Positions 14,717 through 23,864 of a DNA stretch of 64,000 nucleotides are shown one piece after another. Every line of letters begins with the position of its first letter. Within the stretch, counting starts at the first letter, position 1. Under the pieces are notes generated by a model. It made no database searches and was not told where the DNA came from. It saw nothing but the letters and a program-made list of their open reading frames with translations. This stretch comes from Acidobacteriota bacterium (GTDB taxonomy: Bacteria > Acidobacteriota > Vicinamibacteria > Vicinamibacterales > CAVVIG01): contig JAFDVO010000013.1 of the NCBI GenBank assembly GCA_018268955.1, positions 62,001-126,000 on the forward strand. The letters are read 5' to 3'. Both the position numbers and the translations under genes were made by a program.

Positions 14717-15754
14717 ATGCCCGTGCCACATAAACACATCGAGATTCGCGTGGAAAACCTCGAGCAGACCGTTGCCTCACTGCAGTCGCTGCCCCGCCAG
14801 GTGCACGATCTCTCGTCGCAGTTCCTGCAACTGCGGCAAGACGTTCGGACTGATATTTCTGCGCTGACAGTGCGGGTCGATCGACTCGAAACTGGGGTCG
14901 GCGCGCTCCGCAGTGATGTTGTGGAGCTTCGAGGTGAGGTCGGCGACCTGCGTGAGGACGTTGGCGAACTGCGTGGTGACGTCGGTGAGCTGCGCGGTGA
15001 GGTGGGTGAGCTGCACGGGAACATTGGCGGGCTACGTGACGAGGTTCGTGGAATGCACGGCGAGCTCAGTGAGGTCAGGGCTGAACTCGGAGCAGTGCGG
15101 GGCGAAGCGCGAGAGATTCGCAGTGAACTTCGGGACGTTCGAAGTGACATCCGGGAACTACGCACTGACGTCGGCAGCCTGCGCGATGAACTGCGCACCG
15201 AAGCGGGCGGATTGCGGGGTGAGCTGCGCACTGAAGTGGGTGGGCTTCGCGACGAACTGCGCACCCAAGTGGGTGGCCTGCGCGAGGAGCTGCACACCGA
15301 AGTGAGCGGGCTTCGCGAGGAGGTGCGCACTGAAGTGGGTGGGCTTCGCGAGGAGCTGCACACCGAAGTGAGCGGGCTTCGCGAGGAGCTGCACACCGAA
15401 GTGAGTGGGCTTCGCGAGGAGCTGCACACTGAAGTGGGTGGCCTGCGCGAGGAGCTGCACACCGAAGTGAGTGACCTGCGCACTGAGCTCTACACCGTCC
15501 GCGATGAACTGAGTGGCCACATCAGTGGCCTGCGCACTGAGCTCTACATCGTCCGCGATGAACTGAGTGGCCACATCAGTGGTCTGCGCGGCGAGCTCCA
15601 TACCGTTCGCGACGAACTGCGCGCCGACATGGCGGCAATGAACAAGGAGCTGGCGGGTGCGATTCTGGACCAGGGGGCTGAGATGCGGAGCCTCTTCAAC
15701 GAACTCGCCAATCGCATCGCGCTTCCTGGCGGGGGGCATCAGCCTCGCGAGTGA
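14717..15754 (+). CDS. Long coiled-coil protein with heptad-to-hendecad repeats
   Basis: A 345-residue protein that is almost entirely a charged coiled coil with no cysteine. Residues 60-112 run in 7-residue units ('GELRGEV' type). Residues 152-250 are nine perfect-register 11-residue units ('VGGLREELHTE' type). Residues 254-307 are three 18-residue units ('LRTELYTVRDELSGHISG' type), that is 7+11. The period change implies a change of superhelix handedness or pitch. A short non-repeat C-terminus ends in a helical stretch 'MRSLFNELANRIAL'. There is no signal peptide or membrane segment. GTG 14723 is an alternative start with better GGAG spacing. No function is recognised. Confidence 0.8.
   Translation: MPVPHKHIEIRVENLEQTVASLQSLPRQVHDLSSQFLQLRQDVRTDISALTVRVDRLETGVGALRSDVVELRGEVGDLREDVGELRGDVGELRGEVGELHGNIGGLRDEVRGMHGELSEVRAELGAVRGEAREIRSELRDVRSDIRELRTDVGSLRDELRTEAGGLRGELRTEVGGLRDELRTQVGGLREELHTEVSGLREEVRTEVGGLREELHTEVSGLREELHTEVSGLREELHTEVGGLREELHTEVSDLRTELYTVRDELSGHISGLRTELYIVRDELSGHISGLRGELHTVRDELRADMAAMNKELAGAILDQGAEMRSLFNELANRIALPGGGHQPRE
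15170..15466 (+). repeat. Nine tandem 33-bp coding repeats
   Basis: Each 33-bp unit encodes one 11-residue coiled-coil repeat; adjacent units are nearly identical at DNA level (GAGGAGCTGCACACCGAAGT recurs). Two 54-bp units follow at 15476-15583. Units are multiples of three, so copy number can change without a frameshift. Confidence 0.85.
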
Positions 15755-17215: not shown

Positions 17216-17261
17216 TTGATCGCGCGAAACGCGGTGGGCTATAGTTTGCGGGTAGGCGAAC
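17216..17261 (+). promoter_or_regulatory. Candidate imuA promoter and overlapping operator dyad
   Basis: TTGATC (17216-17221) and TATAGT (17240-17245) are spaced by 18 bases, a sigma-70-like arrangement. An imperfect dyad, GTTTGC (17244-17249) and GCGAAC (17256-17261) separated by six bases, overlaps the -10. imuA operons are generally LexA-controlled, so this dyad is a candidate SOS box, but it is one example with a one-base mismatch between arms. Confidence 0.4.
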
Positions 17262-17275
17262 AAAAGGCGAAAACA

Positions 17276-18064
17276 ATGCTGCCTGCCCGCGCTGACCGCA
17301 ACACGCTCATCTCTGCACTTCGGGCCCGCCGGCTCGATCGGACCCTGACCTCCACATTGCCTGACGTTCGTCCTCGCGACGAGCAGGCGGTGGCTCCGAC
17401 GGGCGTACCTGCTGTCGATGGGCGGCTCGGGGGGGGGCTGCCACGGGGCCAGCTGTCGGAAGTGGTCGGGGCCCGGTCCTCGGGACGCACGTCGCTGCTG
17501 CTGCAGGCGATCGCGTCGGCGACACAGCGGGGCGAACTGGTGGCCCTGGTCGATGCGCTGGACATGCTGGATGTGCCGACCGCTGTCGCGGCAGGCGTCG
17601 ATCTGTCGCGCCTGCTGTGGGTGCGAGGGCATGTCGCGCTGCACGCCGGCTTCTGCCGCGACTTCGCGCAGCGATCGATGGAGCAGGCCGTGCGTGCGGT
17701 CGGCCTCGTGCTGCAGGCGGGCAACGTCGGCCTGGTCGTGCTCGATGTCGCCGAGGCTCCGCCCGATGCCGTGCGCCGGCTGCCGTTCACGACGTGGCTG
17801 CGGTTGCAGCGCATGGTCGAAGGCAGCCAGACGGCAGCCGTGCTGGTCGGCAGTGCGCCCATGGCGCGGAGTTCCGCGGGTGTGTCGATCCGGCTGCAGC
17901 GCGCCACCGCCGGTGCCGCGGCCACCGTGTCCAGCACGCATGCGCGCTTCTCGGGTGCGCTGTTCGAGGGGCTCTCGATTGAAGCCGGGGTGTCCCGTGC
18001 GCGGGTGCAGCCCGTAGATAGTTCGGCGATCGCACTGACCACACGAGCTGCACATCATGTCTGA
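17276..18064 (+). CDS. imuA: ImuA, RecA-like mutasome accessory protein
   Basis: A 262-residue RecA-fold protein. Residues around 40-60 read 'VDGRLGGGLPRGQLSEVVGARSSGRTSLLLQ', the ImuA/RecA start. The Walker A motif has Arg in place of the usual Lys ('GARSSGRTS'), which is common in ImuA and suggests weak or no ATP hydrolysis. The motif 'VGLVVLDV' fits Walker B. ImuA acts with ImuB and DnaE2 in SOS-induced translesion synthesis. ATG 17276 is chosen over TTG 17216 because the likely promoter lies between them and AAGG sits nine bases upstream. Its stop overlaps the imuB start by 8 bases. Confidence 0.88.
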   Translation: MLPARADRNTLISALRARRLDRTLTSTLPDVRPRDEQAVAPTGVPAVDGRLGGGLPRGQLSEVVGARSSGRTSLLLQAIASATQRGELVALVDALDMLDVPTAVAAGVDLSRLLWVRGHVALHAGFCRDFAQRSMEQAVRAVGLVLQAGNVGLVVLDVAEAPPDAVRRLPFTTWLRLQRMVEGSQTAAVLVGSAPMARSSAGVSIRLQRATAGAAATVSSTHARFSGALFEGLSIEAGVSRARVQPVDSSAIALTTRAAHHV

Positions 18065-20060
18065 CGTCCCAGCCGTGCCGTCTCCAGCAACCGAGGCCGC
18101 GCTGTTTGCGTGCCTCTACCAGCCGCCTGCACCGGGGGCCACGGCGAGTGACGTTCCACTGAGTGCGCACGTGCCCTCAGCGGGCGTCGTGGCGCCGTCG
18201 CCGCTCATCGCGATCGCGGCGGAGTTCTCCCCACGATACGAGCAGCACCGTGCGGATCTCGTGTCGGTCGACGTGCGTGGGTTGTCGCGGCTGCTGGGAA
18301 CGCCGAAGGCGATCGGGGCTGAGATGCGGCGCGACGCGGCGTCGCGCGGGGTGCGTGTGCATGTGGCCGTTGCTCCGACACGCATGGCTGCCGTGGTGCT
18401 GGCGATGGCGCGGCCGGGGCTCACCGTGGTTCCGGCTGGAAGCGTGGCGGATGCGCTCGCACCGGTGCCGATCGCCGTGCTCGAACAGCTGCATGAAAAT
18501 CCACTGCCGGCCGGCAGCAAGGCCGAGGCACGCCTGCGTGCGGAGGATGCGCGCGCGGCGATAGCGGCGTTGAAGCGCTGGGGGCTGCGGACGCTCGGCG
18601 AGCTCGCGGCGTTGCCCGCTGCCGATCTGGCAGCGCGGCTCGGGCGTGGAGGGCGTCTCTGGCAGGCGATTGCCCGCGGTGAGGATTCGCGTCCACTCGT
18701 GCCGATGCAGCCGGAGGAGCGCTTCGACGGCACGCTCGAACTCGAATGGCCGATCGAAGGGGCCGAACCGCTGTCGTTCGTGCTGACGCGCCTGCTCGAG
18801 CCGTTGTCCACGCGCCTCGAGCGCCGCGATCGTGGCGCGGCGGTCCTGCACGTCGTGCTGGGGCTCGTCACACGCGAGACGCACACCTGTCGCCTTGAAT
18901 TGCCCTCGCCGCTGCGCGACGTCCGTGCGCTGCGGACGCTCGCGCTCCTGGATCTCGAAACGCACCCGCCGTCGGCTGCGATCGATCGCGTGACGGTCAC
19001 GATCGAGCCGACACCTGGACGCATCCTGCAGCACACGTTGTTCGCGCGTCCGCACCCGACGCCGGAACAGCTCTCGACGCTGCTCGCACGGCTCGGCGCG
19101 CTGATGGGGGAGGACCGCGTGGGCGCACCGGCGGCTGTTGAATCATTCCGTCCTGGCGCATTCGAGCTGCGTCCGTTCGCCATCAACCATACGCCGGCCT
19201 CTGACCTCCGTCCTCTGTCCTCTAACCTCCAACCTCCAACCTCCGTCCTCTGTCCTCCGTTCTCCGCCCTGCGTCGTTGCCGCCAGCCGATCCCCGCGCG
19301 TGTTGTCGCGGATGCGCAGCTTCGTCCCCTGCGCGTCGCGACCGACCGCCGGGGATTCGCTGGCGGTGCGGTCCTCGCGAGTGCAGGGCCGTGGCGCACA
19401 TCCGGTGCGTGGTGGGAAGAGCAGGGGTCGAGCCTGGAAGTGAGAAGTCAGCAGTCAGAACGTGCGACCCGCCAACCCACCCTCCAACCCCCACCCTCCA
19501 ACCTCCAGAGGCGTGAGCTGTTCACGCGCGATGGCGATCTCGTCACGGTGCCTCTCCGGCAACGTGAGACCCATCGGCCCAGCAGCCCGAAGCCTGACGG
19601 GAACCAGGAGCCCGGAGTCGACAGTGTCCGGAGTCTGAAGCCGGAAGCCCAGAGCCGGAAGCCCGAAGCCGATCACGCCCGAAGCCCGGAGCCCCAAGCC
19701 GGGTCTGCCTCGAGCCTGAAGTCTGGACCTGGAGTCGAGAGGCCTGTAGCCGACCATGCCGGAAGCCGGAAGCCGGAAGCCCAGAGCCTGATGCCCGACG
19801 CCGACCATGCCCGACGCCCGGAGTCCCAAGCCGGGTCTGCCTCGAGCCTGAAGTCTGGACCTGGAGTCGAGAGGCCTGTAGCCGACGATGCCGGAAGCCG
19901 GAAGCCCGAAGCCCAAAGCCTCCCGTCCGTCCGTGCCATGCGCGAAGGCGGCCCGTGGAATCGCGATGAATGGGAGGTGGCGCTCGCCGATGGTGCGGTG
20001 TATCGGATCTTCCGCGACCGGCTGACCGATGCCTGGTTCATCGACGGAGTGGTGGACTGA
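18057..20060 (+). CDS. imuB: ImuB, Y-family polymerase-like mutasome hub with repeat insertions
   Basis: A 667-residue protein, longer than typical ImuB (about 450-550). Residues 1-375 give a Y-family DNA polymerase fold: 'YEQHRADLVSVDVRGLSRLLG' in the palm, then an HhH-like region 'LKRWGLRTLGELAALPAADLAARLG'. The acidic triad of active Y-family polymerases is not intact, as expected for ImuB, which serves as a scaffold for DnaE2 and the sliding clamp. The C-terminal motifs 'GPWRTSGAWWEE' and 'WNRDEWEVALADGAVYRIFRDR...FIDGVVD' are normally close together. Here they are split by about 150 residues of translated heptanucleotide repeat, and another 26-residue repeat segment begins near residue 380. 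The frame is intact throughout. Confidence 0.88.
   Translation: MSDVPAVPSPATEAALFACLYQPPAPGATASDVPLSAHVPSAGVVAPSPLIAIAAEFSPRYEQHRADLVSVDVRGLSRLLGTPKAIGAEMRRDAASRGVRVHVAVAPTRMAAVVLAMARPGLTVVPAGSVADALAPVPIAVLEQLHENPLPAGSKAEARLRAEDARAAIAALKRWGLRTLGELAALPAADLAARLGRGGRLWQAIARGEDSRPLVPMQPEERFDGTLELEWPIEGAEPLSFVLTRLLEPLSTRLERRDRGAAVLHVVLGLVTRETHTCRLELPSPLRDVRALRTLALLDLETHPPSAAIDRVTVTIEPTPGRILQHTLFARPHPTPEQLSTLLARLGALMGEDRVGAPAAVESFRPGAFELRPFAINHTPASDLRPLSSNLQPPTSVLCPPFSALRRCRQPIPARVVADAQLRPLRVATDRRGFAGGAVLASAGPWRTSGAWWEEQGSSLEVRSQQSERATRQPTLQPPPSNLQRRELFTRDGDLVTVPLRQRETHRPSSPKPDGNQEPGVDSVRSLKPEAQSRKPEADHARSPEPQAGSASSLKSGPGVERPVADHAGSRKPEAQSLMPDADHARRPESQAGSASSLKSGPGVERPVADDAGSRKPEAQSLPSVRAMREGGPWNRDEWEVALADGAVYRIFRDRLTDAWFIDGVVD
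19198..19274 (+). repeat. 7-bp array inside imuB (CCTCCAA-type)
   Basis: Eleven consecutive 7-bp units, including CCTCTGA, CCTCCGT, CCTCTAA and CCTCCAA twice in a row. It is translated as a Leu/Pro/Ser-rich stretch ('SDLRPLSSNLQPPTS') with no counterpart in the Y-family fold. Confidence 0.85.
19440..19509 (+). repeat. Strand-switching 7-bp array inside imuB
   Basis: Ten 7-bp units: GTGAGAA, GTCAGCA and GTCAGAA, then after 19461 pyrimidine-rich units such as CTCCAAC twice and CCCCACC. It lies directly after the conserved 'GPWRTSGAWWEE' motif. Confidence 0.8.
19584..19922 (+). repeat. Long degenerate 7-bp array inside imuB (GCCGGAA-type)
   Basis: About 340 bases of mostly 7-bp units such as AGCCCGA, GTCTGAA, GCCGGAA, GCCCAGA and GCCCGAA. 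It contains a direct duplication: 19693-19775 and 19825-19907 match with one mismatch, 132 bases (44 codons) apart. It is translated in frame as a Ser/Pro/Glu/Ala-rich, probably disordered stretch. Confidence 0.85.
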
Positions 20061-20187: not shown

Positions 20188-23100
20188 GTGTCTTACATCG
20201 AACTCCACACCGCATCAGCCTTCAGCTTCCTGCAGGGGGCCTCACTGCCCGAAGCGCTCGTCGAGCGCGCCGCGGAACTTGGGTACTCCGCGCTTGCGCT
20301 GCTCGATCGCGATGGCGTCTACGGCATGCCGCGCTTCCACAAGGCCGCGCGTGCCGCCGGCATTCGCCCCATTGTGGGGGCAGAGATCTCCGTAGGACAG
20401 GTCGGACAGGCGCGGCAGGCGGGGCTGCATCGTGAAGGGCGGGCCGGGCAGGTAGGGCAGGTAGGACTGAGCCGAGGACAGTCCACCCAGCCCCACCCGG
20501 CCAGCCTGCCCTTCACGTTGTCCCTCCTCTGCGCCTCCCAGGAGGGCTACCGGAATCTCTGCCGCCTGATCACGCAGATGAAGCTGGCCGCCCCAAAAGG
20601 CGAGGGGGCACTCCCCATCAACGCGCTCGAGGGCATGACCACCGGGCTTGTCGCCATCGTCGGCCGTGCGGCGCTCGATGCGAACCGCTTCGGCGTGGGC
20701 GGCCTTCTCGATCGGGTCGTCGGCCTGTTTGGGCGAGACCGGACCTACGTCGAACTGCAGCGGCACTTCAGGCGCGACGAGGAGGCGGACAACCAGGCGC
20801 TCGTCGCGATGGCCGAGGCGTTCCGGGTGCCGCTGCTGGCCACGAACGGCGTGCGCTTCGCGACCCCGGCGGAGCGCCCGCTGTTCGACGTCCTCACCTG
20901 CATCCATCACCATACGGATCTGGCCAATGCCGGGCGACGGCTGTCGTCGAATGCGGAGCGGTACCTCAAGTCACCAGACCAGATGGCGTCGCTGTTCGCG
21001 GACCATCCCCGTGCGCTCGCCAACACGCGCGACCTCGCGGAACGCCTCCAGTTCACGATGGCCGATCTCGGCTATCGCTTCCCCGAGTACCCGGTGCCGG
21101 CCGGCGAGACGCAGGCGTCGTTCCTCCGGCGCATCACGGACGTCGGCGCGCGCAATCGGTACCGGCCGTACCACGACAAGGCCCGTGCGCAGATCGCCCG
21201 CGAACTCGACCTCATCGAGAAGCTCGATCTTGCCGGCTACTTCCTGATCGTCTGGGACATCGTCAACTTCTGCCGCCAGCACGACATCCTCGTGCAGGGC
21301 CGCGGGTCGGCCGCAAACAGCGCCGTCTGCTACAGCCTCGGCATCACGGCTGTCGATCCGGTCGGCATGGACCTGCTGTTCGAGCGCTTCCTGTCGGAAG
21401 AGCGCGGCGAATGGCCCGACATCGACCTCGACCTGCCGAGCGGCGACAGGCGCGAGCGGGTCATCCAGCACGTGTACCAGAAGTACGGCCAGCACGGCGC
21501 CGCGATGACGGCGAACGTCATCACGTATCGGGGCCGCAGCGCGGCCCGCGAAGTCGGCAAGGTGCTCGGCTTCGACGCCACGCAGGTCGATCGCCTCGCG
21601 AAGGCGATGAACCACTTCGAGTTCGTCGACGCGACTGAAACGTTGCCGCGTCATCTCGCATCGGTTGGGCTCGATTTGAACGGCCATCGCGTGCGGCTGT
21701 TCGCCACGCTCTGGCAGCAGATGCAGGACCTGCCGCGCCACCTCGGCCAGCATTCGGGCGGCATGGTGATCTGCCAGGGACGGCTGGACTCGGTCGTGCC
21801 GCTCGAGCCCGCCAGCATGCCCGGGCGTGTCGTCGTGCAGTGGGACAAGGACGACTGCGCCGACATGGGCATCGTCAAGGTCGACCTGCTCGGCCTCGGG
21901 ATGATGGCGGTCATTCAGGATGCGCTCGCGCTGGTCAATGGGGGCTCGCGCGTGACAGAGGCCGGGGGGCAGAGGTCAGAGGTCGGGAAGCCGTTGACCT
22001 CCAACCTCCAACCTCCAACCGCTCCGGAAGCGAAGCCGGCCCAGAGCCGAGATCCCAGAGCCCAGAGCCTTTTAGTTGACCTCGCGCATCTTCCCCAGAA
22101 CGATCCCGCCGTCTACCGCATGCTGCAGGAGGCGGACACGATTGGTGTCTTCCAGGTGGAGTCGCGCGCGCAGATGGCGACGTTGCCGCGGCTGAAGCCG
22201 ACGACGTTCTACGACCTCGTCGTGCAGGTCGCCATCATCCGGCCCGGCCCCATCGTCGGGCAGATGGTGCACCCGTACCTGAATCGCCGCGCCGGCCGGG
22301 AAGCGGTGACGTACGCGCATCCCTCACTCGAGCCCGTGCTGGCGCGGACGCTCGGCGTGCCGCTGTTCCAGGAGCAACTGCTGCGGATGGCGATGGTCGT
22401 CGCCGACTTCACCGGTGGCCAGGCCGAGGAACTGCGGCGTGCGATGGGCTTCAAGCGATCCGAGAAGCGGATGAAGCAGATCGAAGTGCAGCTCCGCGCG
22501 GGGATGGCGAAGAAGGGCATCACGCCGGACGCGATGGAGCAGATCATCCTGTCCATCACGTCGTTCGCGTTGTACGGCTTCCCCGAGTCGCATGCCGCGA
22601 GCTTCGCGCTGCTGGCGTATGCGAGCGCCTACCTGAAGGCCCACTATCCGGCGGCGTTCTACACGGCGCTCCTCAACAACCAGCCGATGGGCTTCTATCA
22701 CCCGTCGACGCTCGTGAAGGATGCACAGCGGCACGGCGTGCGATTCCAGCCGATCGACGTGCAGGTGTCCGACTGGGACTGCACGGTCGAACCGGACGGG
22801 GCCGTGCGGTTGGGCCTGCGCTATGTGAACGGCCTGCGCGCCGAGGCGGGCAAGGCCATCGCGGCCAGAGACCGTCATCGCGGCGGACCGCCCGCTGACG
22901 TGCTCGTGTGTCCGAAGTGCGGCTGCGACGACCCGTCGATGCTCGAGCCGGTCGAGGGTCGAGGCGCGCGGCCAGGCACGTATTACTGCAACAACTGCTC
23001 GCACGACTGGGTGCCTGGTGCCCGACGGCCGCGTCGGTTTTCGTCACTCGACGAACTCGTGTCGCGGATTGGGCTGCGCCGCGACGAGATCGTGACGCTG

Positions 23101-23778
23101 GCCGACATCGGCGCGCTCAACGCCTTCGGGTACGACCGACGCGCGGCGCTCTGGCAGGCCGAGCGGATGGTGCGTCCGTCCGGCGCGCTGTTCAGCGATC
23201 GTGGCGCAGACACAGGAGCCGTCGACGCCTCGCAGTGGCTGGGGCCGGCGGCAGATCTGGCGCTCGCATCTGCCATTCAGTCAGGCATGTCGGATGAGGG
23301 GACGGCCACGGTCGATGATGCCGTTGCGCGTGAGGACGACGCCGAGTGTCCGCTGAAGCCGATGACCGAGGCCGAACGGCTCGTGGCCGATTATGCCGGC
23401 ACCGGCCTCACGGTCGGCCGGCACCCGATGGCGCTGCGTCGCCATGAGCTGGTGATGCGCGGCGTGCTGCGTGCCACCGACCTGCGTACCGCGCGGCAGG
23501 GCCGCATGGTGCGTGTGGCCGGCATGGTCATCACGCGCCAGCGCCCGGGCACCGCGAAGGGCTTCGTGTTCCTCACGCTCGAGGACGAAACCGGCATCGC
23601 GAACATCATCGTCCGGCCGGACCTGTTCGCGCAGGATCGATCCGTGATCGTCGAGGAGCCATTCCTCCTCATAGAAGGTGTCCTACAAAACCAGGACGGC
23701 GTGATTTCCGTTCGCGCAGAGGTCGTGCAGGGGCTCGGCGGCACGTCTGTGGACTTCGAGGCGCACGACTTCTATTGA
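20188..23778 (+). CDS. dnaE2: DnaE2 error-prone DNA polymerase III alpha subunit
   Basis: A 1196-residue C-family polymerase. GTG 20188 is chosen because the family start 'Y-x-E-L-H-x-x-S-A-F-S-F-L' follows at once; the frame upstream is repeat-derived. Order: PHP domain, palm with 'GRGSAANSAVCY' and 'EWPDIDLDLPSGDRRERVI', a third acidic region 'VKVDLLGLGMMAV', helix-hairpin region, and a C-terminal OB fold ('VRVAGMVITRQRPGTAKGFVFLTLED'). As usual for DnaE2 it lacks the tau-binding tail. Odd features are three insertions: a 9-bp-repeat segment at residues 69-110, a 7-bp-repeat segment at 594-628, and a zinc ribbon with Cys908, Cys911, Cys934 and Cys937. It performs translesion synthesis with ImuA and ImuB. 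Confidence 0.92.
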   Translation: MSYIELHTASAFSFLQGASLPEALVERAAELGYSALALLDRDGVYGMPRFHKAARAAGIRPIVGAEISVGQVGQARQAGLHREGRAGQVGQVGLSRGQSTQPHPASLPFTLSLLCASQEGYRNLCRLITQMKLAAPKGEGALPINALEGMTTGLVAIVGRAALDANRFGVGGLLDRVVGLFGRDRTYVELQRHFRRDEEADNQALVAMAEAFRVPLLATNGVRFATPAERPLFDVLTCIHHHTDLANAGRRLSSNAERYLKSPDQMASLFADHPRALANTRDLAERLQFTMADLGYRFPEYPVPAGETQASFLRRITDVGARNRYRPYHDKARAQIARELDLIEKLDLAGYFLIVWDIVNFCRQHDILVQGRGSAANSAVCYSLGITAVDPVGMDLLFERFLSEERGEWPDIDLDLPSGDRRERVIQHVYQKYGQHGAAMTANVITYRGRSAAREVGKVLGFDATQVDRLAKAMNHFEFVDATETLPRHLASVGLDLNGHRVRLFATLWQQMQDLPRHLGQHSGGMVICQGRLDSVVPLEPASMPGRVVVQWDKDDCADMGIVKVDLLGLGMMAVIQDALALVNGGSRVTEAGGQRSEVGKPLTSNLQPPTAPEAKPAQSRDPRAQSLLVDLAHLPQNDPAVYRMLQEADTIGVFQVESRAQMATLPRLKPTTFYDLVVQVAIIRPGPIVGQMVHPYLNRRAGREAVTYAHPSLEPVLARTLGVPLFQEQLLRMAMVVADFTGGQAEELRRAMGFKRSEKRMKQIEVQLRAGMAKKGITPDAMEQIILSITSFALYGFPESHAASFALLAYASAYLKAHYPAAFYTALLNNQPMGFYHPSTLVKDAQRHGVRFQPIDVQVSDWDCTVEPDGAVRLGLRYVNGLRAEAGKAIAARDRHRGGPPADVLVCPKCGCDDPSMLEPVEGRGARPGTYYCNNCSHDWVPGARRPRRFSSLDELVSRIGLRRDEIVTLADIGALNAFGYDRRAALWQAERMVRPSGALFSDRGADTGAVDASQWLGPAADLALASAIQSGMSDEGTATVDDAVAREDDAECPLKPMTEAERLVADYAGTGLTVGRHPMALRRHELVMRGVLRATDLRTARQGRMVRVAGMVITRQRPGTAKGFVFLTLEDETGIANIIVRPDLFAQDRSVIVEEPFLLIEGVLQNQDGVISVRAEVVQGLGGTSVDFEAHDFY
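20392..20517 (+). repeat. 9-bp array inside the dnaE2 PHP domain
   Basis: Fourteen 9-bp units in register with the codons: GTAGGACAG, GTCGGACAG, GCGCGGCAG, GGGCAGGTA twice, later CCCCACCCG and GCCAGCCTG. It is translated as 'VGQVGQARQAG...GQVGQVG' and splits 'GAEI' from the next conserved strand. Confidence 0.85.
21968..22072 (+). repeat. 7-bp array inside the dnaE2 palm/finger region
   Basis: Exactly fifteen 7-bp units (105 bases, 35 codons): GGCAGAG, GTCAGAG, ... GACCTCC, AACCTCC, AACCTCC, ... AGCCGAG, ATCCCAG, AGCCCAG. It sits between 'QDALALVNGG' and 'LAHLPQNDPAVYRML', which are adjacent in ordinary DnaE2. Confidence 0.85.
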
Positions 23779-23784
23779 TGCTTG

Positions 23785-23864
23785 TAATGCAAGAATGCAG
23801 AAATGCAGAAATGCAGAAATGCAGGAACGCACGAACGCTCGAACGCACGAACGCTCGAACGCAC
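23785..23864 (+). repeat. 8-bp tandem array upstream of the TonB receptor
   Basis: Ten 8-bp units in one register: TAATGCAA, GAATGCAG, AAATGCAG three times, then GAACGCAC and GAACGCTC alternating (five units). There is no strand switch. It begins 7 bases after the dnaE2 stop. Confidence 0.88.

Follow-up and report, generated by a model that had tools for sequence, protein, structure and literature searches.

Translated heptamer-type repeat arrays in variable loops of the mutasome proteins ImuA, ImuB and DnaE2 of Acidobacteriota

The mutasome operon imuA-imuB-dnaE2 of a soil-type Acidobacteriota bacterium and its relatives carries arrays of short tandem repeats, mostly with units of 7 or 8 bp, that are translated in frame within variable loops of the encoded proteins. 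The explanation that we consider probable is that dispersed repeats load the surface loops of these proteins, and that purifying selection retains only the in-frame, stop-free insertions. The window, that is the whole stretch of 64,000 nucleotides analysed here, comprises bases 62001-126000 of contig C4 (151,611 bp) from an assembly of 4.77 Mb.

Pfam and NCBIfam matches together with gene position identify the order imuA, imuB, dnaE2 as a mutasome operon (Table 1), although the match of imuA to the NCBIfam model ImuA_translesion (7e-16) falls under that model's cut-off. ImuB is the catalytically dead Y-family protein of the mutasome, and the gene assigned to this class lies between imuA and dnaE2. 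Its predicted model combines a Y-family fold with a C-terminal all-beta ImuB-C domain, and the fold matches the DinB/Dpo4 Y-family polymerases (Foldseek, E 9e-16). Published descriptions of ImuB-C give it an all-beta, possibly SH3-like structure (PMC3765255; PMC6511836). Roughly the N-terminal half of the IMS domain is seemingly absent from the ImuB of the window and its relatives, where only positions 79-145 of the 148-position Pfam profile are matched, and the start of imuB (18057-18230) seems to encode an N-terminus that is short by Y-family standards. DnaE2 is 61-85% identical to the proteins of relatives when aligned outside its inserts.

Table 1. Features of the mutasome locus, in positions of the window
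Feature	Position	Strand	Evidence or remark
imuA, RecA-like, first gene of the mutasome operon	17216..18064	+	Pfam RecA 1.1e-13; start codon uncertain
imuB, 667 aa	18057..20060	+	ORF list; Pfam IMS match weak; flanked by imuA and dnaE2
Linker 1, from Y-family core to ImuB-C, holding array 1 (CCTCCAA/CCTCTGT type)	19183..19275	+	lag-7 identity
ImuB-C domain, interrupted by insertion	19269..20057	+	AlphaFold2 model
170-residue insertion (aa 458-629), predicted disordered	19428..19943	+	alignment of 58 ImuBs
Heptamer array 2, GAAGTCA then CCTCCAA units	19441..19511	+	lag-7 identity 0.58
Heptamer array 3, GAAGCCC/GAAGCCG	19581..19922	+	TRF period 132; z 8.6
dnaE2, error-prone polymerase	20188..23778	+	NCBIfam error-prone DNA polymerase, 1212.6 bits
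DnaE2 insertion site 1 (aa 80-104), degenerate 9-bp-like repeats (GGGCAGGTA)	20425..20499	+	alignment, low pLDDT
DnaE2 insertion site 2 (aa 585-625)	21940..22062	+	arrays, alignment, low pLDDT
Further DnaE2 insertion site (aa 1011-1049)	23218..23334	+	alignment, low pLDDT
8-bp array AATGCAGA/GAACGCAC, untranslated	23786..23864	.	directly 3' of dnaE2; typical of the genome's intergenic arrays

The initial annotation had described three 7-bp arrays translated in frame within imuB, and both the ORF list and the lag-7 self-identity, scored against first-order Markov shuffles, agree with this. Lag-7 identity was 0.79 in array 1 (19198-19274; z 6.3), 0.72 across the full 93 nt of linker 1, and 0.52 in the degenerate array 3; the composite array 2 gave a z score of 3.9 and the imuB core, taken as a control, -0.3. 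The gene is a single reading frame of 667 codons, open across all arrays. The arrays were also thought to split ImuB-C, which holds for arrays 2 and 3, located in one loop, but not for array 1, located in the upstream linker. AlphaFold2 places the strands of ImuB-C at aa 405-418, 424-428, 437-449, 635-643, 648-654 and 659-666, with the insertion between strands 3 and 4. These flanking strands have mostly pLDDT above 90, whereas nearly all residues from aa 467 to 631 are below 50 (AlphaFold2, 58 aligned ImuBs). The motifs GPWRTSGAWWEE and WNRDEWEVAL are indeed pushed apart, although by 178 residues rather than the approximately 150 first proposed, compared to 6 residues in the congener G001. 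Within array 3, TRF detected a direct duplication of 132 bp (44 codons; approximately 19637-19768 and 19769-19900), the two copies being 93% identical with 8 substitutions and no indels.

Arrays of the same kind, overlooked in the initial annotation, are also found in dnaE2, where the low-confidence stretches of the protein model coincide with insertion hot spots of the alignment. At site 1, 24 of 49 DnaE2 relatives have an insert of at least 8 aa, and pLDDT is low over aa 74-104. Site 2 (low pLDDT 588-626; insert in 26/49 relatives) contains the heptamer arrays 21997-22020 (CCTCCAA) and 22039-22069 (AGAGCCC). The stretch at aa 1011-1049 is a non-repetitive linker here and carries repeats in relatives; 32 of the 49 have an insert, and low pLDDT extends over 1001-1049. 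In plasmid-encoded DnaE2s of Proteobacteria, most of the protein fits within only about 3.06-3.12 kb. These proteins thus appear compact, and the array trait of the mutasome seems to be lineage-bound as far as taxa beyond the Acidobacteriota, which were barely sampled, allow a comparison.

The relatives are Acidobacteriota genomes from metagenomes, several of them titled Vicinamibacterales, with a single congener (G001; ImuB identity 74%). The public record of this congener, L119 (CALQBJ020000180.1), is titled Bifidobacterium breve; its mutasome is 74-85% identical to that of the window, and it is probably a mislabelled metagenome bin. Between flanking motifs in 50 loci, the ImuB-C loop measured as little as 0-3 nt and as much as over 500 nt, and the hypervariable linker 1 between about 60 and 237 nt. 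The insert has no conserved length, 18 nt in the congener against 534 nt in the window, and the conserved insertion of fixed length that the initial annotation had named as a possible refutation was rejected, as lengths vary freely among relatives. The same ImuB loops are filled by different units, including CAGTCGG, ATCCCGA, AGTCCGG, TGGGCAG and GGATCGG, by 9-bp repeats of GTCGGGTGG types, by 8-bp repeats of CACAGAGG types and by palindromic elements. REP-like palindromes were observed in the ImuB linkers of thirteen loci (L006, L007, L008, L012, L015, L018, L019, L020, L027, L029, L041, L044 and L047), exemplified by GTAGGGGCACGGCATGCCGTGCCCCTAC, by GGGGTCGGAGTCGATTTC with its inverse, and by GGGGGTGGGGCCCCRCGCG, which suggests that the site accepts more than tandem arrays.

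The likely source of the arrays is found in the rest of the genome. Sampled stretches were searched for arrays, amounting to 864 kb of G000 (the genome of the window), 400 kb of G052 and 317 kb of G015. The G000 sample holds 130 arrays and 699 called genes; only 13 arrays overlap genes and nearly all are intergenic. Heptamer-type arrays well inside genes were found in these 864 kb only in imuB and dnaE2; of the other gene-overlapping arrays, two sit at the ends of genes, and four have a 9- or 18-bp unit whose period keeps the frame. Periods in the sampled stretches of G000 were 7, 8, 9 and multiples of these, with 4-6 and 10-12 absent, and the same narrow range was seen in the sampled stretches L051-L070 and the window. 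At 14897-15619 the window has repeats of 21/33/99/54 bp (CTGCGCGAGGAGCTGCACACCGAAGTG), with periods that are multiples of three, unlike the heptamer arrays; they are probably an in-frame repeat of coiled-coil type. The commonest intergenic family, CCTCCAA (10 arrays), recurs in both imuB and dnaE2. Furthermore, units are genome-specific, with 141 distinct ones in total, and 13.1% of array pairs within a locus have the exact unit in common compared to 0.63% of pairs between loci. This sharing of units within genomes, together with the recurrence of CCTCCAA, fits a genome-specific dispersal that fills intergenic DNA and loops alike.

The distribution among genes was analysed in 80 further Acidobacteriota loci together with the window. 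These loci were picked via imuB, have common ancestry and are mostly metagenome assemblies, and genes were called with a simple codon-usage caller. In total 63 arrays were found in imuB, 112 in dnaE2, 14 in imuA, 10 in 353 other genes and 90 in intergenic DNA. Counting only internal arrays, defined as arrays of a 7- or 8-bp unit that lie 60 bp or more within the bounds of a gene, 158 were located in 208 mutasome genes and a single one in 353 flanking genes; hosts were 75/208 mutasome genes against 1/353 others (Fisher p 1e-35, taking genes as independent). None was found in the 96 non-mutasome genes of at least 400 aa. Frame-neutral 9-bp units were considered as a type that might be enriched in genes; this was rejected (25/189 against 7/90, p 0.23).

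As controls, 30 orthologues of each of several proteins were collected from relatives. Internal 7/8-bp arrays per 100 kb amounted to 53 in ImuB, 47 in DnaE2, 12.5 in genes with a LigD polymerase domain and 1.9 in RecN, whereas DnaE1, PolA, MutS and DinB had none in 30 orthologues each. In the genome of the window the DinB match covers only 103 residues in a 111-aa frame (G000:C34:35992-36300), perhaps owing to a contig end or a broken gene, while nearly all relatives have a full DinB. The trait extends to LigD, another accessory repair protein (4 of 30 genes: L392, L394, L395 and L397). In G052, the hosts besides imuB are a xanthine-dehydrogenase-like protein, a 4Fe-4S protein and an FAD-linked oxidase; in G015, dnaE2 alone hosts clearly internal heptamer arrays, three in number. 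Because LigD takes an intermediate value and G052 has three other host genes, the mutasome is an extreme but not an exclusive case. RecN is a non-replicative protein of the SOS type. SOS induction or general dispensability as the full cause was rejected, since RecN and DinB have almost no arrays; dispensability combined with loop tolerance fits the intermediate value of LigD but fails for RecN and DinB, which host next to none. As to a passive link, the density of arrays in the mutasome correlated weakly with that of the intergenic DNA nearby (rho 0.21, p 0.13).

Since seven is not a multiple of three, the initial annotation proposed that slippage in the arrays could toggle ImuB, and hence the mutasome, making mutability phase-variable. 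In favour of this, a one-unit change would cost ImuB-C its three final strands, stops number 6 and 1 in the remaining forward frames of array 3, and switching of mutability via short tandem repeats in mutL has been published (PMC2955026). Frame changes were sought by tblastn, independently of gene calling; 99 of 104 imuB junctions were in frame without a stop, and in imuB and dnaE2 together four genes were off-frame at an array (L022, L026, L074 and L185). With 89 array-bearing mutasome genes called intact, about 4/93 are off-frame, so that at least 95% are in frame; this ratio is approximate because the locus sets behind its two counts overlap without being identical. In neuO, a true heptanucleotide switch with 3-53 copies, 42 of 64 genomes (66%) are OFF (PMC13001214), and the two shares differ strongly (Fisher p 2e-17). 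The large OFF share among sampled genomes that marks a contingency locus is thus missing, and so is a long, near-perfect tract; units are degenerate, and perfect copies number 3.0 and 3.4 in the window, with a median of 2.7 and a maximum of 5.4 across the whole set. The arrays moreover lie mid-gene, decorating several loops of ImuA, ImuB and DnaE2 alike, and the growth of array 3 includes the 132-bp in-frame step. Repeat slippage as an on/off switch of the mutasome is therefore not borne out, and we consider it improbable. Frame changes at or near a variable loop were observed in L022 (imuB of G025), L047 (imuB of G053) and L185 (imuB and dnaE2), where assembly error, a pseudogene or an off variant are alike possible. 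That the frame is under selection is supported both by the in-frame share and by the depletion of stops. Translated mutasome arrays with a 7- or 8-bp unit number 164. Stop triplets, counted in any frame, amount in mutasome arrays to 41 for the sense and 132 for the antisense strand, compared to 142 and 135 for the two strands of intergenic arrays. The results agree with strong selection for insertions that can be read through and speak against frequent switching, with rare off variants still compatible. A 7-bp array inside a gene hence need not be a phase switch.

Other roles for the arrays have to be weighed as well. Variable disordered loops might tune mutasome assembly or activity through ImuB-C spacing, site shielding or weak binding, so that lineages with loops would be favoured. 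In support of this, the arrays are concentrated on all three proteins of one complex and not on the paralogues DnaE1 and DinB, and the authors of a REP survey held that a similar decoration of repair genes is unlikely to be fortuitous (PMC3733652). However, loop sequence, length and presence vary freely, down to 0-3 nt in some relatives, the loops share no conserved peptide, and the proteobacterial plasmid DnaE2s appear compact; such a function is unlikely. Also unlikely is the reading of the mutasome as a selected target, in which lineages would retain genome-specific heptamer arrays in the loops because array length and rare frame loss set error-prone activity, as a heritable, evolvable control of the mutation rate. 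A function at the level of nucleic acid, with the arrays serving as hairpin-forming inverted pairs or G-rich repeats in the operon mRNA or DNA (translation control, pausing or binding sites), would agree with the 15 inverted against 5 direct pairs among close mutasome arrays of the 80 loci and with the quadruplexes that G-rich heptamers form in vitro (PMC4692102). Yet the arrays in the mutasome of the window are direct or unrelated, with no inverted pair among them, units differ among genomes, and the choice of array strand within genes follows stop avoidance, which makes this reading quite improbable. As nearly all of the genomes were assembled from metagenomes, array lengths could be affected by assembly error, and contigs of the relatives G006 and G048 end at these loops. 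The window is nevertheless internal to its contig with the frame open, and independent assemblies from many projects have different arrays at the same sites, each with the unit of its own genome; an assembly or sequencing artefact, named at the outset as a possible refutation, is very improbable.

According to the reading that we prefer, the arrays would be local copies of genome-wide, dispersed tandem repeats of 7, 8 or 9 bp that are normally intergenic. They would have repeatedly settled and grown in a few surface loops of the imuA-imuB-dnaE2 products, where they would be read as disordered peptide; the long loop from strand 3 to strand 4 of ImuB-C would be formed in the window by arrays 2 and 3. 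Selection would retain total insert lengths divisible by three and a sense strand without stops, so that the conserved strands and the downstream polymerase are made. Array 3 would have grown partly by the single 44-codon duplication, rather than by free heptamer slippage. The peptide sequence of the loop itself is probably unimportant. The analysis establishes the arrays and their spread, the enrichment in the mutasome, the keeping of the frame, the depletion of stops and, in predicted models, the location in loops; from these we infer tolerance of the loops instead of a use for them, a loop-bearing protein that still works, and a dispensable, seldom expressed operon as the source of the tolerance. 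Dispersal plus tolerance does not explain the preference for the mutasome, as RecN has almost no arrays and DinB none. That the three proteins of one mutagenic complex carry arrays in the majority of their variable loops throughout a phylum, while DnaE1 and DinB have none, provides a natural experiment in how repeat DNA becomes protein and in what makes a gene tolerant.

Rickettsia palindromic elements (RPE) are longer palindromes that are kept in frame in many protein-coding genes, and the STRR repeats of cyanobacteria are dispersed 7-bp arrays of few copies. The arrays described here resemble RPE in being retained in frame as extra peptide in coding genes, but they are tandem heptamers and are focused on the mutasome. 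Heptamer arrays of the type GGGNATC in Xanthomonas and Nostoc are dispersed, have few copies and are mostly intergenic, some as inverted pairs, and are under-represented in coding regions (PMC4692102). The commonest unit in our set, AATCCCG (GGGATTC by rotation and strand), has a similar G-rich make-up; here, in contrast, translated arrays are packed into one specific operon, and the units change from genome to genome. The neuO gene of E. coli K1 likewise contains translated 7-bp repeats, but as one tract in the 5' coding region, whereas the present arrays have about three perfect copies and lie in mid-gene loops (PMC13001214). The mutL switch also consists of short tandem repeats in a gene that sets the mutation rate; its three copies of an in-frame 6-bp unit inactivate the gene when their number changes (PMC2955026), whereas here a frame-breaking unit occupies tolerant loops.

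A search of the open-licence literature found no earlier description of heptamer arrays within ImuB or DnaE2. A paper of 2013 described REPs within genes for replication and repair, dnaE2 included, and in some species no other coding genes contain REPs; flexible linkers or loops were suggested as their sites, with speculation on a mutator role (PMC3733652). As with these intragenic REPs, dispersed repeats are translated here within genes for DNA repair and error-prone polymerases, they belong to a dispersed family, and they are inserted in frame where relatives are without them. REPs are, however, palindromes of 20-40 bp, in part tied to RAYT transposases as mobilisers (PMC3733652), while the arrays of the window are 7/8/9-bp direct tandem repeats with genome-specific units and are for this reason filed neither as REP nor as RPE. 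They differ further in being concentrated in imuA, imuB and dnaE2 together, in having no known mobiliser, and in having been compared with paralogue controls, by which the earlier speculation on REPs in repair genes (PMC3733652) becomes a testable pattern. The closest precedent is provided by REPs and Rickettsia palindromic elements in coding genes, including dnaE2 (PMC3733652), and the present case is the tandem-heptamer counterpart of REP-tagged repair genes, extended to the whole mutasome and tested against its paralogues.
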